This document shows positions 1-5,137 of a stretch of DNA of 6,126 nucleotides, in pieces (within the stretch, counting starts at the first letter, position 1; each line of letters begins with the position of its first letter). The notes beneath the pieces were generated by a model. The model was not told where the DNA came from. It saw nothing but the letters and a program-made list of their open reading frames with translations, and did not search any database. Origin of the DNA: an uncultured delta proteobacterium (lineage in GTDB: Bacteria > RBG-13-61-14 > DRUE01); contig CAIYYW010000016.1 in NCBI GenBank assembly GCA_903930515.1, positions 1 to 6,126 on the forward strand. Reading direction: 5' to 3'. The position numbers were made by a program, and so were the translations under genes.

Positions 1-672
1 GGCGAAATGGAACCACCAGACCGACTGATAAACCCGGGTCACGCCGGCAATGCTCATTCCCCCAAGTCCCATTGAAACCAGGTATCCGATGGGGGAATAT
101 GCCGCCCATTGGTCATTGGTATAAGCAATCCGGATCCCCTCAAGCAGGAACCCGGTGATGACGACCGCGGCGAATAGTATGAGCAAAAAGGCGTCATCCC
201 ATTTATTGTCCAGCCGGTCGGGCTTGATGATGTATCTGCGGATTGCGGCGTAGGCCAGGCCGGCGAGCAGGGCCAGGCCGGCGAGGTCGGCGAACATGCT
301 GATGGCCAGATATAAGGGGCCGTGATATATGCGGAACTTGAAATCCACATCCACGAACACAACCGCGGTGGTGAGCATAAGGGCTAGGAACGACCAGAAG
401 ATCGCGACATGCATTATGCCCGGGACCGGGTCCTTGAGCACGCGCATTTGCAGCGGGGTGTCCCAAACGAACAATTTGATCCGGGCGAACCAGTTGTTGA
501 AGCGGCTCTGGTCCGGTTGCGCCGAGAACCAGAATTTTAGTTTCTGATAAAAGCCGTAGGCGCAAATCCCCAGCGCGATCGTTGCCAGGGGGTAGATCAT
601 AAATTTGTAGGGCGCGTCAATATGCCAATACATCGCCCTTTGCGCGACATTGGCTGGTATGGTCATATCCAT
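1..672 (-). CDS. NarI/HdrE-like membrane cytochrome b-type subunit, N-terminal part (runs off the window edge)
   Basis: The first 224 residues are visible and the reading frame is still open at position 1, so the C-terminus is missing. The ATG at 672-670 is preceded by GAGGAGG (686-680) at 7 nt, which supports it over the ATG at 666. The protein is strongly hydrophobic, with likely membrane spans at about residues 24-41, 84-107, 117-143, 159-180 and from about 193. Histidines 88, 117 and 222 lie in or beside spans and are candidate haem b ligands. The layout, including a PGIMH motif at the second span and an RLDNKWDD loop before the fourth, resembles the respiratory nitrate reductase gamma/DsrM/HdrE-like domain. 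In many anaerobes this domain is fused to a C-terminal 4Fe-4S and CCG (HdrD-like) domain. If so, it would pass electrons between the quinone pool and a cytoplasmic partner. That Fe-S part lies outside the window and is inferred. It is the last visible gene of a leftward operon, 53 bp after the second resolvase-like gene. Confidence 0.78.
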   Translation of the reverse strand, partial: MDMTIPANVAQRAMYWHIDAPYKFMIYPLATIALGICAYGFYQKLKFWFSAQPDQSRFNNWFARIKLFVWDTPLQMRVLKDPVPGIMHVAIFWSFLALMLTTAVVFVDVDFKFRIYHGPLYLAISMFADLAGLALLAGLAYAAIRRYIIKPDRLDNKWDDAFLLILFAAVVITGFLLEGIRIAYTNDQWAAYSPIGYLVSMGLGGMSIAGVTRVYQSVWWFHFA

Positions 673-725
673 TTTAATTCCTCCTCTATTCGCTGCAGGG
701 CATGCTCGCGCATGCTCCCGCGCGA

Positions 726-1169
726 TCAAGCCGCTTCTTTGCCTTGTTTCTTTTCCACGACCGCCAGGGCGGCATCGCGCTGCCGCTCGGCCAGGGCGCC
801 CATATAGCGGTGCCGGACCTGTTGGCTCAGGCAATCCCATAGGTAGGAACTGCAAACGAGCTGGAGCCGCTTCCGGTCCAGGGTTTTGAGGAACGGTTCC
901 AGTTCCTTCCGCTTCCGGCTCAGGCACCAGATCCGCTCAACCAGGATGGTGTCCACGGTCGGGCCGCAATTGAGAGCATCCCTGACCCCGGGCTGATTGA
1001 TAAAATCCTCGCGGTAATTTTCGTCCTCATAAACGCAGACCAGCTCCAGGTTTTCCCGCTTGGCATATTCCTGGATCCGCTCTTTCTGGAACTCCTTGCT
1101 GATCTTAAGGTCGGTTCCCAGGATCGGGATGTCGCACACATAACCGACTGCTTTTCTTGGCTTGTTCAT
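726..1169 (-). CDS. Degenerate serine-recombinase-like domain protein, second tandem copy
   Basis: 147 residues. The ATG is preceded by GGAAGGAGG at 7 nt. The sequence follows the scaffold of a resolvase/invertase N-terminal domain: GYV near residue 9, ISKEFQ (23-28), YA..ENLELV.VYED (35-49), PGV (60-62), ILVERIW.LSR (75-85) and a LVC strand (104-106). Key catalytic positions are altered. No RVS motif follows GYV (it reads GYVCDIP, with a 10-residue insertion before ISKE). The DR of DRLSR is replaced by W81-C82, and the arginine before PG is Q59. There is no HTH or recombinase domain after it, only a charged tail. It aligns without gaps to the upstream paralogue (about 57% identity over the first 122 residues by hand count), sharing Cys 12, 68, 106 and 113 and the block WDCLSQQVRHRY. 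It is probably not an active recombinase. A structural, regulatory or redox role is possible, but the function is unknown. Confidence 0.8.
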   Translation of the reverse strand: MNKPRKAVGYVCDIPILGTDLKISKEFQKERIQEYAKRENLELVCVYEDENYREDFINQPGVRDALNCGPTVDTILVERIWCLSRKRKELEPFLKTLDRKRLQLVCSSYLWDCLSQQVRHRYMGALAERQRDAALAVVEKKQGKEAA

Positions 1170-1177
1170 CTTAAGGC

Positions 1178-1186
1178 CTCCTTCCG
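1178..1186 (-). promoter_or_regulatory. Shine-Dalgarno site of the second resolvase-like gene
   Basis: On the minus strand GGAAGGAGG is followed by CCTTAAG and then ATG at 1169. This is a near-perfect anti-16S match at ideal spacing and it fixes the start. It abuts the intercistronic palindrome, so that hairpin could affect access to this site. Confidence 0.7.
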
Positions 1187-1213
1187 GCGCGCAGACACCC
1201 TTGTCTGCGCGCC
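1186..1213. repeat. Intercistronic perfect palindrome (12-bp stem, 4-nt loop)
   Basis: Left arm GGCGCGCAGACA and right arm TGTCTGCGCGCC are exact reverse complements around a CCCT loop. It lies in the 52-bp spacer between the two resolvase-like genes, immediately before the Shine-Dalgarno site of the second. A nearly identical palindrome (core arms GCGCAGACA/TGTCTGCGC, loop CTCT) occurs at 5116-5137, so this belongs to a dispersed repeat family. In the transcript it would form a stable hairpin that could attenuate transcription or protect mRNA ends. No U-run follows on the minus strand, so it is not a standard terminator. Confidence 0.75.
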
Positions 1214-1221
1214 TTAAAAAT

Positions 1222-1662
1222 TCACGCGGCCTGCTCGTGCCTGGATTCTGCCCGGGCCCTGGCTTCTTGCCGCATCTTCTCCGCCAAATCCTCGCCGTAG
1301 CGATGCCGTACTTGCTGACTCACGCAGTCCCAGAGTTGAGAGGTGCAAACCAGAGGAACCCTTCTCGCATCCAGCTTGTCCAGCACCGGCTCCAAGTCCT
1401 TCATCTTCCGGCTCATCGCCCACACCCGCTCCACCAGGACCAGGTCGTAAGCCTCTTCGCAACAGAGGACCTTGTTCACCCCCGGCCGGTTCAAACAACC
1501 CTCCCCGGAGCAGTCATCCTCGTAGATGCCGACCAGCTCAAGGTTTTCCTTCTCGGCGTATTTCAAGATCCTCAGTCGCTGATCCTCCTTGCTGATCACC
1601 AGGTCGCTTCCGACCACCGGCACATCACACACATAACCGATTGCCCTCTTCATCTTTTTCAT
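1222..1662 (-). CDS. Degenerate serine-recombinase-like domain protein, first tandem copy
   Basis: 146 residues from the ATG at 1662, chosen because AAAGGAGG lies 7 nt upstream. An in-frame ATG at 1698 has no such site and would lie almost on the predicted transcription start. Scaffold motifs match a resolvase N-terminal domain: AIGYV (7-11), ISKEDQ (23-28), YAEKENLELVGIYEDDCSG (35-53), NRPGV (58-62) and LVLVERVWAMSR (74-85). The catalytic Arg-Val-Ser after GY is absent (GYVCDVP) and the DR of DRLSR is W81-A82. R59 and R85 are retained. It shares Cys 12, 68, 106 and 113 with the downstream paralogue and has additional cysteines at 51, 56 and 67. There is no DNA-binding C-terminal domain. It is the first gene after the sigma-54 promoter, so it heads the operon that continues into the cytochrome-like gene. 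Loss of recombinase activity is inferred from the residues and the actual role is not known. Confidence 0.82.
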   Translation of the reverse strand: MKKMKRAIGYVCDVPVVGSDLVISKEDQRLRILKYAEKENLELVGIYEDDCSGEGCLNRPGVNKVLCCEEAYDLVLVERVWAMSRKMKDLEPVLDKLDARRVPLVCTSQLWDCVSQQVRHRYGEDLAEKMRQEARARAESRHEQAA

Positions 1663-1714: not shown

Positions 1715-1730
1715 TACAACCTCCGTGCCA
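1715..1730 (-). promoter_or_regulatory. Sigma-54 (-24/-12) promoter driving the leftward operon
   Basis: Read on the minus strand this is TTGGCACGGAGGTTGTA. Consensus is TTGGCACG-N4-TTGCW, so the -24 element is perfect, spacing is exact, and only the C of the -12 GC is T. The -24 GG is at 1729-1728 and the -12 GT at 1717-1716. Transcription would begin near 1704, giving a leader of about 42 nt to the ATG at 1662. A sigma-54 activator is encoded on the other side of this region, which strengthens the call. Confidence 0.72.
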
Positions 1731-2023: not shown

Positions 2024-3427
2024 ATGTCAAACCGAGCGGTATTTCCACCCACGGAGGAAGAGCTGCTTTCGCGGCTGAATTGGTTTGTAAAACTGCGCTG
2101 GCTTTTTTTGCTGGGATTGGCCGGGGTGCTGTTTTTCGCCGCGGATGTTTTTCAAGTGAAGTTCAAGGCCTTTCCGATCGTGCTGATCGGGATCATCGTT
2201 CTGATATACAACCTGGTTTTTTATTTCCTTCATTCCTGGATGCGCCAGCAGCCGGGCCGGGAGGTCTCCAAGCGGGGCTTGAGGATTGAGGCCAATTTCC
2301 AGATCGGTCTGGACCTGTTATGTCTGGTGTTCCTGATCCATTACAGCGGCGGGATCGAGAACCCGTTCGTGTTCTTCTTCGTGTTCCATATGATCCTGGG
2401 CAGCATCCTGCTCACCGGCCGCGACATCTGGTTCCAGGCCGCAGGCGCCACCGGGATCCTGTTCCTCCTGCTCGCCCTTTCCTATTACAAGGTGATCGCC
2501 CACTACCATATGGAGGGGTTCGCCTCGGACCAGCTCTGGAGCAATGTCCCCTATATCTACGCCGGGGTGGCCTCCTTCCTGGCCACGGTGTTTATGTCCG
2601 TGTATATGACCAATTCCATCGCGCGCAGCCTGAGGAAGAGGGAGAAGGAGGTCTTCTTCACCAAGACCCAGTTGGAGAAAAAATCGCGCGAGCTGGAACT
2701 GGCCAACCAGGAACTGATCCGGAAGCAGAACCTGCTGATCCAGTCCGAAAAGCTCGCCTCGCTCGGGAAACTTTCCGCCGGGGTCGCCCACGAATTGAAC
2801 TCGCCGCTTACCGGAATCCTGAGCTTCTCATATTTCATCAAGGAGCATTGCGCCTCCGATCCCCAGGCCCAAAGCGATATTGAGGTGGTGATCCGCGAGA
2901 CTGAGCGCTGCAAGAAGATCATCAAGAGCCTTCTGGATTTCGCGCGCCAGAGCCAGCCGGAGAAGAAGGAGGATGACCTGCTCCATATTTTGAACAAGAC
3001 CATCTCGCTGGTTGAGAACCATAAGGACTTCAAAAATATTGAGATCGTCAAAGACTATCCGGAAAAGCTGCCTTTGATTATGTTTGACAAAGACCAGATC
3101 CAGCAGGTGTTTATGAACCTGGTCGTGAACGCGATGGAGGCGATGTCCGGCAAGGGCAAGCTCCAAATCCGCGCCGGGATCGGCTCGGACGGGAACGACC
3201 TTGAAATCTCCTTCCGCGACACCGGCTCCGGGATCAGCGAGGAGAACCTGCAGAAGATTTTCGACCCGTTCTTCACCACCAAGGAAAAAGGCACCGGACT
3301 CGGCCTCAGCATCAGCCTGGGGATCATTGAAAACCACGGAGGCAAGCTGGAGGTGTTCAGCGCGCCCGGCCAAGGCTCTACCTTCCTGGTGAAACTGCCG
3401 GTGGTCCCGGTTGGGGAATGGGGGTGA
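2024..3427 (+). CDS. Membrane sensor histidine kinase with RegB-like GGxxNPF motif
   Basis: 467 residues from the ATG at 2024; a TTG at 1988 would add 12. Neither has a clear Shine-Dalgarno site. Residues about 25-196 contain six likely membrane spans (25-42, 49-70, 92-107, 113-132, 136-156, 175-196). GGIENPF at 109-115, between spans three and four, matches the GGxxNPF heptapeptide known in RegB/PrrB as a ubiquinone-interaction site. A charged coiled coil (about 205-236) leads to the HisKA domain with H-box ASLGKLSAGVAHELNSPL and phospho-acceptor His256. Cys296 lies 40 residues later, the same spacing as the H225/C265 pair of RegB. The ATPase domain is complete: N-box with N365/N369, G1 DTGSG (399-403), F-box FDPFFTT (413-419), G2 GTGLGL (423-428). 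There is no PAS domain. It should autophosphorylate and pass phosphate to the regulator encoded immediately downstream. Quinone or redox sensing is inferred from the motif. Confidence 0.9.
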   Translation: MSNRAVFPPTEEELLSRLNWFVKLRWLFLLGLAGVLFFAADVFQVKFKAFPIVLIGIIVLIYNLVFYFLHSWMRQQPGREVSKRGLRIEANFQIGLDLLCLVFLIHYSGGIENPFVFFFVFHMILGSILLTGRDIWFQAAGATGILFLLLALSYYKVIAHYHMEGFASDQLWSNVPYIYAGVASFLATVFMSVYMTNSIARSLRKREKEVFFTKTQLEKKSRELELANQELIRKQNLLIQSEKLASLGKLSAGVAHELNSPLTGILSFSYFIKEHCASDPQAQSDIEVVIRETERCKKIIKSLLDFARQSQPEKKEDDLLHILNKTISLVENHKDFKNIEIVKDYPEKLPLIMFDKDQIQQVFMNLVVNAMEAMSGKGKLQIRAGIGSDGNDLEISFRDTGSGISEENLQKIFDPFFTTKEKGTGLGLSISLGIIENHGGKLEVFSAPGQGSTFLVKLPVVPVGEWG

Positions 3428-3429
3428 AT

Positions 3430-4872
3430 ATGGCGGAAGTGAATGTGCTGGTGGTGGATGACGAGGAGGTGGTGCTGGCCAGTTGCGAGCGCGCCCTGCA
3501 AAGCCAGGGATACGCCGTGATTTCTGCCCAGAGCGTGGACCAGGCCCTGGCGGAACTGGAAAATAATTCGTTTGATGTGGTGGTCGCGGATTTGGTGATG
3601 CCCCGGAAGGGCGGGATGGAACTGCTCAAGATTCTCCGGGAAACCTACCCGCAGATCCGGGTGATTATGATCACCGGATACTCCTCAATCAATACCGCGG
3701 TGGAATCCATCAAGCTGGGCGCGTTTGATTACCTGAGCAAGCCCTTCTCGCCCGCGGAATTGGTGCTCACCGTGAAGAAGGCCCTGGAGGAAAAGGGAAG
3801 ATTGGTGTCGCCCTACCTCACCGACCAGGAAATGCCCGGCCAGATGATCTTTGACAACATCATCGGAAACTCCTCCCGGATGATTGAGGTCTTCAAGTTC
3901 GTATCCAAAGTCGCCGCCACCGATACCACCGTGCTGATCATCGGCGAGTCGGGCACCGGGAAAGAATTGGTCGCCCGCGCCGTCCATAAAAACAGCCGGC
4001 GCAAGGACAACCATTTCGTGGTGGTGGACTGTCTCACCCTGACCCCGACCCTGCTGGAAAGCGAATTGTTCGGTCATATCAAAGGGTCCTTCACCGGAGC
4101 CGTGTCCGCCAAGGCCGGCTTCTTTGAAGTGGCCAACCAAGGGACCCTGTTCCTGGACGAAATCGGAGACCTCAGCTTTGACCTGCAAGGAAAACTGCTC
4201 CGGGTGATCCAGGAGCGAAAATACACCCCCGTGGGTGGCACTGAGCCTAGAGAGACCGACATCCGTCTGGTCGCGGCCACCAACAAGAACCTGAAAAAAA
4301 TGGTTGAGACCGGAACCTTCCGCGAGGATTTGTTCTATCGCCTATATGTGGTCCCGATTTTCCTGCCCCCGCTCCGGGAGCGCAAGGAAGACATCCCGAT
4401 TTTGGTGGAACATTTCCTGAGAAAATTTTCCAGCCGTTACCAAAAGCCCGTCCCCGCGATGTCGGAGAAGGTGATCAAATGCCTGCTCAATTACGCCTGG
4501 CCGGGGAATGTGCGGGAGCTGGAAAATACCATTGAGCGCGCCGCGGTCAGCTTTGAAGGCGGGGAAATCCTGCCCTCCGACCTGCCCGAGCAGATCCAGA
4601 AGGAAGTCGGCGAAGGGGCTGGTCTCGCCCCCGGGACCCTGGGCGAACTGAAAAAAATGAAAAAGCAGCTTCGGGAAAAAGCCATTGAGGATATTGAAAA
4701 GGAGTTCGTATTGAGCGCGCTCAGCTCCCATAATTTCAGCGTGGCCGAGGCCGCCAAGGCCGTGGGTATGCAGCGGACAAACTTCTACCGACTGATCCGC
4801 AAATACAACATTAAACTGCCCAAATCCGAGGAAGAATTGGAATCCGCCGATACTCACAACCACGATCACTGA
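3430..4872 (+). CDS. NtrC-family sigma-54-dependent response regulator
   Basis: 480 residues from the ATG at 3430, 2 nt after the kinase stop, with a G-rich GGGGG stretch 5 nt upstream. An in-frame ATG at 3418 overlapping the kinase end would add 4 residues. Receiver domain (about 5-118): acidic pair D10/D11, phospho-acceptor D54, T82 and K104. AAA+ domain (about 140-380): Walker A GESGTGKE (172-179), sigma-54 contact loop GSFTGA (219-224, usually GAFTGA), Walker B GTLFLDEIGD (238-247), sensor I ATNKN (283-287), FREDLFYRL with putative R-fingers (298, 304), and WPGNVRELEN (357-366). The C-terminus has a Fis-type HTH (about 436-459), then an acidic tail ending in DTHNHDH. All catalytic elements are present, so it should activate sigma-54 promoters when phosphorylated by the upstream kinase. 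The divergent sigma-54 promoter at 1715-1730 is the obvious target, by inference. Confidence 0.93.
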   Translation: MAEVNVLVVDDEEVVLASCERALQSQGYAVISAQSVDQALAELENNSFDVVVADLVMPRKGGMELLKILRETYPQIRVIMITGYSSINTAVESIKLGAFDYLSKPFSPAELVLTVKKALEEKGRLVSPYLTDQEMPGQMIFDNIIGNSSRMIEVFKFVSKVAATDTTVLIIGESGTGKELVARAVHKNSRRKDNHFVVVDCLTLTPTLLESELFGHIKGSFTGAVSAKAGFFEVANQGTLFLDEIGDLSFDLQGKLLRVIQERKYTPVGGTEPRETDIRLVAATNKNLKKMVETGTFREDLFYRLYVVPIFLPPLRERKEDIPILVEHFLRKFSSRYQKPVPAMSEKVIKCLLNYAWPGNVRELENTIERAAVSFEGGEILPSDLPEQIQKEVGEGAGLAPGTLGELKKMKKQLREKAIEDIEKEFVLSALSSHNFSVAEAAKAVGMQRTNFYRLIRKYNIKLPKSEEELESADTHNHDH

Positions 4873-5115: not shown

Positions 5116-5137
5116 GCGCAGACACTCTTGTCTGCGC
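5116..5137. repeat. Dispersed palindrome, second copy
   Basis: Arms GCGCAGACA and TGTCTGCGC pair perfectly (9 bp) around CTCT. It differs at one position out of 22 from the palindrome core inside the left operon at 1189-1210. Two near-identical copies 4 kb apart in unrelated spacers point to a genome-wide repeat family. Confidence 0.7.

Follow-up and report, generated by a model that had tools for sequence, protein, structure and literature searches.

Introduction

In gamma-delta resolvase the catalytic set consists of R8, S10, R45, D67, R68 and R71, and genes annotated as 'recombinase family protein' are usually read as parts of mobile elements. The NarI-HdrD type enzymes belong to membrane electron transfer, and the ETF:menaquinone oxidoreductases are among their relatives. 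In the text available of a review on exapted mobile-element genes, the serine recombinases described are active ones only (PMC8987985). As regards signal perception, the heptapeptide GGXXNPF is the quinone-binding element of the kinase RegB (PMC10525716). Literature searches covering few subscription journals returned no paper joining resolvase with heterodisulfide reductase, sigma-54, operon and histidine kinase, and nothing on serine recombinases together with the term pseudoenzyme; resolvase, NarI and HdrD occurred together in no paper found.

This work describes a bacterial locus in which two catalytically dead serine-recombinase-like genes head an operon with a NarI-HdrD gene. The dead domain may have been exapted to serve the NarI-HdrD enzyme as accessory subunit or adaptor, a proposal to which about an even chance is given and whose biochemical part is deduced from sequences and gene context.

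Organisation of the locus

The window, that is, the whole stretch of 6,126 nucleotides analysed, is the entire contig C16 of its source genome. On the minus strand the order of transcription is a sigma-54-type site (1715-1730), gene A (P0001, 1222-1662, 146 aa), gene B (P0002, 726-1169, 147 aa) and the 5' part of a membrane protein gene (672-1). Divergently, the plus strand carries a histidine kinase gene at 2027-3427 and, at 3418-4872, one for a sigma-54 response regulator. Gene A is defined by its open reading frame, a match to the Pfam family Resolvase (PF00239) and an AlphaFold2 model, and gene B by its open reading frame, the same Pfam match and its identity to A. Towards the contig end (5356-6126) open frames without any Pfam match are present on both strands.

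A and B can be aligned without gaps, with 78 of 146 residues identical (53%); in the core, counted from invariant alignment columns, the value is 70/122 (57%). This recount, with both frames at their minus-strand positions, agrees with the first-pass annotation, which had described tandem ungapped paralogues of about 57% identity over 122 residues. The alignment also bears out that Cys12, Cys68, Cys106 and Cys113 and a WDC-S-QQVRHRY block are common to both proteins, and the layout confirms that the pair lies between a sigma-54-type promoter upstream and a redox membrane protein, encoded by the NarI-HdrD gene, downstream.

Homology to serine recombinases

A and B are homologues of the catalytic domain of serine recombinases (resolvases/invertases). 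The profile search against resolvase families that had been proposed for both proteins gave matches to PF00239 above the curated cutoff (A, E 1.4e-9; B, E 1.7e-7), relatives also exceed this cutoff, and a search with the family profile gave matches to TP901-1 integrase, TnpX, Sin and Gin-type invertases. The AlphaFold2 model of A (15-row alignment, mean pLDDT 85, pTM 0.77) has its structural matches in TP901-1 integrase (3bvp; Z 14.6, rmsd 2.9 over 110 residues), Bxb1 (Z 14.1; E 4.8e-7 with Foldseek) and IS607 TnpA (Z 13.7), and serine-recombinase catalytic domains score well above other folds. Residues 3-111 of the model also resemble the N-terminal domain of the GTPase HflXr (Z 8.8, below the recombinases). 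This likeness and that to lobes of sugar-binding proteins (Z 7-8 in the list of matches) were taken as common alpha/beta arrangements, and in the case of HflXr the modelled resemblance is possibly nothing else.

Loss of catalytic residues and new invariant positions

Alignment to TP901-1 integrase and Gin-type invertases places C12 at the column of R8, V/I14 at S10, W81 at D67, A/C82 at R68 and R85 at R71; the column of R45 is occupied by R59 in A and by Q59 in B. Because of this alignment, R45 (in A) and R71 are regarded as kept and the other catalytic residues as lost. The loss of catalytic motifs pointed out in the first-pass annotation, including the tryptophan in place of the D of DRLSR, is thus seen at W81, and the nucleophilic serine is replaced by V/I14.

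The same columns were counted in 23 domains of the family, with four active recombinases as outgroup. The Ser10 nucleophile is present in none of the 23 (Ile in 18, Val in 3, Phe in 1 and Met in 1), R8 in one and R68 in none, and D67 is never Asp and is Trp in 21. On the other side, R45 and R71 each persist in 21/23, and no domain lacks Gln28 or Asp49. The four outgroup recombinases keep nearly all catalytic residues. Among the positions invariant in the family, E78, W111 and Q116 are not common to the four active enzymes, and R79, D112 and R119 are partly so. The WDC-S-Q block had been regarded as no resolvase signature; its sequence does differ, but it occupies the site, before helix E, of the D-T/S-x-x-(A/P)-M-G-R/K motif of active enzymes, so that this description holds for the residues and not for the position.

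As had been anticipated, no DNA-binding domain (helix-turn-helix, recombinase or zinc-ribbon) was detected in A or B, which end at 146-147 residues, and the short tails of their relatives have no Pfam match. Given the incomplete catalytic set and the lack of a DNA-binding domain, both are predicted not to be functional serine recombinases.

The first-pass annotation had suggested a redox or metal-binding role through the four cysteines common to A and B. The redox neighbourhood and the presence of Cys113 in 18/23 domains would fit such a protein, but Cys12, Cys68 and Cys106 are found in a minority of relatives (5, 8 and 7 of the 23, respectively), and in the same genus (genome G001) the A orthologue is without Cys106 and Cys113 and the B orthologue without Cys68. 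Since even orthologues from one genus lose some of the cysteines, this role is very improbable, and a four-cysteine site was rejected on family conservation.

Distribution of the family

A first scan of a genome collection found nine loci, in metagenome-assembled genomes of uncultured deltaproteobacteria, Myxococcales, Acidobacteria and Krumholzibacteriota, and after further searches the set comprised 24 domains from 16 genomes of Myxococcota, Acidobacteriota, Krumholzibacteriota and the lineage of the window itself. Occurrence within the sampled phyla is sparse: 5/195, 3/~235 and 4/297 genomes, the last count comprising two strong members already in the set, one divergent member and one active recombinase. 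Weak matches in G089, G095, G558, G689, G795 and G801 were judged to be other recombinases and left out of the family. Full reading of the proteins from G558, G689, G795 and G801 showed YxRVS and mostly intact catalytic motifs, and the active recombinases of these four genomes form the outgroup. Homologues with intact motifs, which would have told against a repurposed fold, were searched for, and there were none within the family, which is monophyletic with respect to active recombinases (support 100/99).

Genes of the family were duplicated at least three times independently, giving A/B in the genus of the window, the two L019 copies and, in G104, a set among whose members are fused proteins with two and three domains. 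The expectation that paired copies would be general does not hold, since most genomes have one copy, some have two and others have fused doubles or triples. In L021 (3780-5219, plus strand) a single ORF fuses three dead-recombinase domains. The two-domain fusion of G104 (L040, 6318-7403, minus strand) lies away from NarI-HdrD and has its own sigma-54 site; this copy adjoins instead a gene named by eye as a pyridine-nucleotide-disulfide oxidoreductase. Many relatives carry a basic C-terminal tail.

Linkage to the NarI-HdrD oxidoreductase

The gene downstream of B (1-672, minus strand) is cut by the contig end and encodes the N-terminal, NarI/QmoC-like transmembrane part of the enzyme, with matches to QmoC (E 6.3e-12) and TmcC (E 1.2e-5), all under curated cutoffs. 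It is homologous to residues 5-216 of the NarI-HdrD protein of L017, and the start of contig C4 is homologous to residues 230-688; the HdrD half is thus probably located on C4 (G000:C4:3-1427), as judged by this homology across the two contig ends. The L017 homologue contains in one chain a NarI-like transmembrane part (PF02665), two 4Fe-4S motifs (Fer4) and two CCG domains. The genes that come next on C4, after the probable HdrD half, were named by eye as ffh, rpsP, rimM, trmD and rplS-like, and the operon therefore seems to consist of A-B-NarI-HdrD alone.

Each of the 16 genomes has a family member immediately upstream of a NarI-HdrD gene of one and the same subfamily, in the same orientation (in G104, the copy on contig C24), and so the pairing with a redox gene, proposed as a point to be looked for in other genomes, does recur. 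Within one phylum (195 genomes, identity measured to the L017 protein), NarI-HdrD proteins of at least 52% identity were present in six genomes, five of which carry the dead recombinase; 63 genomes had matches of 39% identity or less only, with the dead recombinase in none. The exception, G269, has NarI-HdrD at 52% and no dead recombinase in the 753 bases upstream; G002 has NarI-HdrD at 48% and no dead recombinase was found, its contig ending 66 bp upstream. Because no partner was found beside the enzyme in these two genomes, it may be a dispensable one. Over 14 loci, pairwise distances of dead recombinase and NarI-HdrD are correlated (r 0.744, Mantel p 1e-4). Common descent by itself could add to this correlation, and joint inheritance of a transferred cassette can also explain the linkage together with the matched distances.

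Three genomes (G105, G272 and G495) have neither the kinase nor the regulator and still keep the dead recombinase paired with NarI-HdrD. The tie is therefore to the enzyme, and a tie to the two-component system instead is weakened. In two of them, the Acidobacteria G105 and G495, the divergently oriented gene on the other side of the dead recombinase was named by eye as flavodoxin-like/FMN-reductase-like (L022, 2327-2914; L056, 6973-7554). EtfAB was not seen beside the operon, and beta-oxidation genes lie a few kb from it in G495 only.

Selection

A and B are under purifying selection. The dN/dS values against the G001 orthologues, obtained by simple Nei-Gojobori counting with dS near saturation for A, are 0.167 (A) and 0.32 (B) and lie near those of the kinase (0.17) and the regulator (0.13). 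Homology to resolvases is what decaying mobile-element remnants or still-active recombinases would also display. Either reading of the present genes is nevertheless hardly credible, given the absence of the Ser nucleophile from every member, the lack of a DNA-binding domain, the purifying selection and the conservation of the operon in several phyla. The plasmid, phage and viral-contig collections, at the thresholds used, yielded no family relatives. Mobile-element debris was rejected on selection, catalytic loss and this absence, and the initial view of a repurposed dead resolvase fold stands, with purifying selection, linkage to the redox gene in every genome of the set and the sigma-54 promoter-like sites described below.

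Regulation of the operon

The promoter-like element TGGCACGGAGGTTGTA (1715-1730, minus strand) is 68 bp before gene A and has one mismatch to TGGCACGN4TTGCW, with 0.03 such sites expected by chance. Clear sigma-54 sites (at least 10 of the 12 consensus bases) precede the dead-recombinase gene in 14 of the 17 regions analysed, mostly 49-103 bases before the start, and each is rare in shuffled sequences; the upstream regions of L018, L053 and L022 showed no clear site. With a -24/-12 element near the start and an enhancer-binding regulator nearby, the operon of the window has the features of putative sigma-54 control. A histidine kinase and/or a sigma-54 regulator adjoins the family locus in 12 of 15 testable genomes, the exceptions being the three named above; within this count, only the kinase is visible in the stretch examined of G103 and of G898, and G104 was counted on contig C178.

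The kinase (2027-3427, plus strand) has HisKA, HATPase_c and 6TM_PilS domains, with a PilS/RegB-like transmembrane region. It matches the RegB/PrrB model (E 1.1e-37) with 130 bits, under the curated cutoff of 350, and its GGIENPF stretch, read from the sequence at 2348-2368, fits GGXXNPF. Because the score is below the cutoff, quinone sensing by this kinase is a suggestion only. The NtrC/AtoC-type regulator (3418-4872, plus strand; a later ATG at 3430 is possible) is 84% identical to its G001 counterpart and matches the AtoC (E 7e-133) and NtrC (E 7.5e-126) models, both under the equivalog cutoffs. The palindrome GTATCAATAAAAGATAC (1963-1979; 0.01 expected by chance in the window) has the form GTATC-N7-GATAC, which stands at -317 relative to gene A both in the window genome and in G001, and it may serve the response regulator as an upstream activator site.

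The adjacent two-component system also bears on another possible function, in which the former active-site pocket would bind a small anionic ligand (phosphate, nucleotide or CoA-type) and report to the enzyme or, as feedback, to the kinase and regulator. The phosphate-binding R45 and R71 and Gln28 remain while Ser, R8 and D67 are gone, the kinase and/or regulator is a neighbour in most testable genomes, and the two-domain copy of G104 is near a pyridine-nucleotide-disulfide oxidoreductase gene. However, G105, G272 and G495 keep the gene with NarI-HdrD and without such a system, Gln stands at R45 in B and in the B orthologue, and there is no known ligand, which leaves this function rather unlikely.

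Intercistronic hairpins

Between A and B (1170-1221, minus strand) there is a strong hairpin (dG -28.4, z -5.6) that comprises a dispersed palindrome and, after it, the ribosome-binding site of B. The palindrome GCGCAGACA-N4-TGTCTGCGC occurs in the window at 1189-1210, as the A-B hairpin, and at 5116-5137; its core has 12 sites in the genome and 0 for the reversed control, and it looks like a dispersed repeat of the REP type. A second hairpin (GGGAGCATGC..GCATGCCC; 673-725, minus strand) separates B from NarI-HdrD (dG -25.6, z -4.4), with a G001 counterpart at L013 5948-5998 (z -2.7), and may determine in what proportion the gene products are made. A search of the window against Rfam gave no match.

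These structures flanking B, the ancestral DNA-binding fold and the basic tail of many relatives are compatible with a nucleic-acid-binding relic, which would bind DNA or the operon RNA hairpins without cleavage and tune expression. This is improbable: helix-turn-helix and zinc ribbon were not detected, the A-B gap hairpins differ in sequence between the window genome and G001, and that of the window is a generic dispersed repeat.

Proposed function

A mobile-element fold has seemingly been given a new cellular job, because the cutting machinery is lost and the gene stands before a membrane electron-transfer enzyme in at least four lineages. The route proposed for the NarI-HdrD partner begins with a signal that the kinase would perceive and pass to the regulator; in the lineage of the window this could perhaps be the quinone redox state, given the RegB-like GGIENPF motif, and other ligands might serve where the kinase has an sCache domain. 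The regulator would then activate the operon from the sigma-54 site, and the dead-recombinase protein would be produced together with the NarI-HdrD enzyme. It may act as a homo- or hetero-oligomer (A with B here, fused domains elsewhere), as suggested by the repeated duplication and fusion and the retained helix. The contact surface would probably be formed by the C-terminal helix and the remodelled pocket (E78, R79, W81, W111-D112, S115-Q116 and R119), through which the cytoplasmic Fe-S/CCG part of NarI-HdrD could be bound by an adaptor, gate or assembly factor.

In more general terms, the recombinase fold may now serve a respiratory-type membrane electron-transfer complex as a subunit, structural or regulatory, its phosphate pocket and oligomerisation helix rebuilt to bind the redox enzyme or a metabolite; about an even chance is given to this as well. 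The cases of G269 and G002, with NarI-HdrD and no dead recombinase found, and the two-domain copy of G104, away from NarI-HdrD and with its own sigma-54 site, count against a NarI-HdrD partner.

A whole clade has lost recombinase chemistry and is tied to an enzyme of energy metabolism in several phyla. If the proposal is true, a non-recombinase function would be added to the serine-recombinase superfamily, an unrecognised partner would be assigned to NarI-HdrD oxidoreductases, and an annotation rule would follow: no Ser nucleophile, an LWDCVSQ motif and NarI-HdrD as the next gene. A new functional class in this superfamily is plausible but unproven.

Comparison with known systems

The components are each of known kinds, and their fixed association of dead serine recombinase and redox enzyme was not found in the literature searched. 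With the AtoS/AtoC and NtrC systems the locus shares the HisKA-HATPase kinase, the receiver-AAA-HTH regulator and the sigma-54 site, and with RegB/PrrB kinases the GGXXNPF motif; unlike these systems, the proteins of the window score below the AtoS, AtoC, NtrC and RegB equivalog cutoffs, and sensor domains at family loci vary by lineage (6TM PilS-like or sCache-HAMP). With QmoC, TmcBC, HmcEF, GlpC and TfrB the enzyme has in common a NarI-like transmembrane part, along with two 4Fe-4S motifs and a pair of CCG domains, in a single chain, whereas it differs from other NarI-HdrD paralogues in forming a separate subfamily (at least 52% identity within the phylum searched against 39% or less) headed by the dead-recombinase gene. 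Finally, the central sheet, the start of helix E and the positions Q28, D49, R45 and R71 are common to the dead family and the catalytic domains of TP901-1 integrase (3bvp), Bxb1, Sin, gamma-delta resolvase and IS607 TnpA. In contrast to these recombinases, the family is without a DNA-binding domain and absent from the mobile-element collections searched, has the Ser nucleophile, R8, D67 and R68 replaced, carries LWDCVSQ-R where the D-T/S-x-M-G-R motif stands, and is found in a fixed operon with a redox enzyme.
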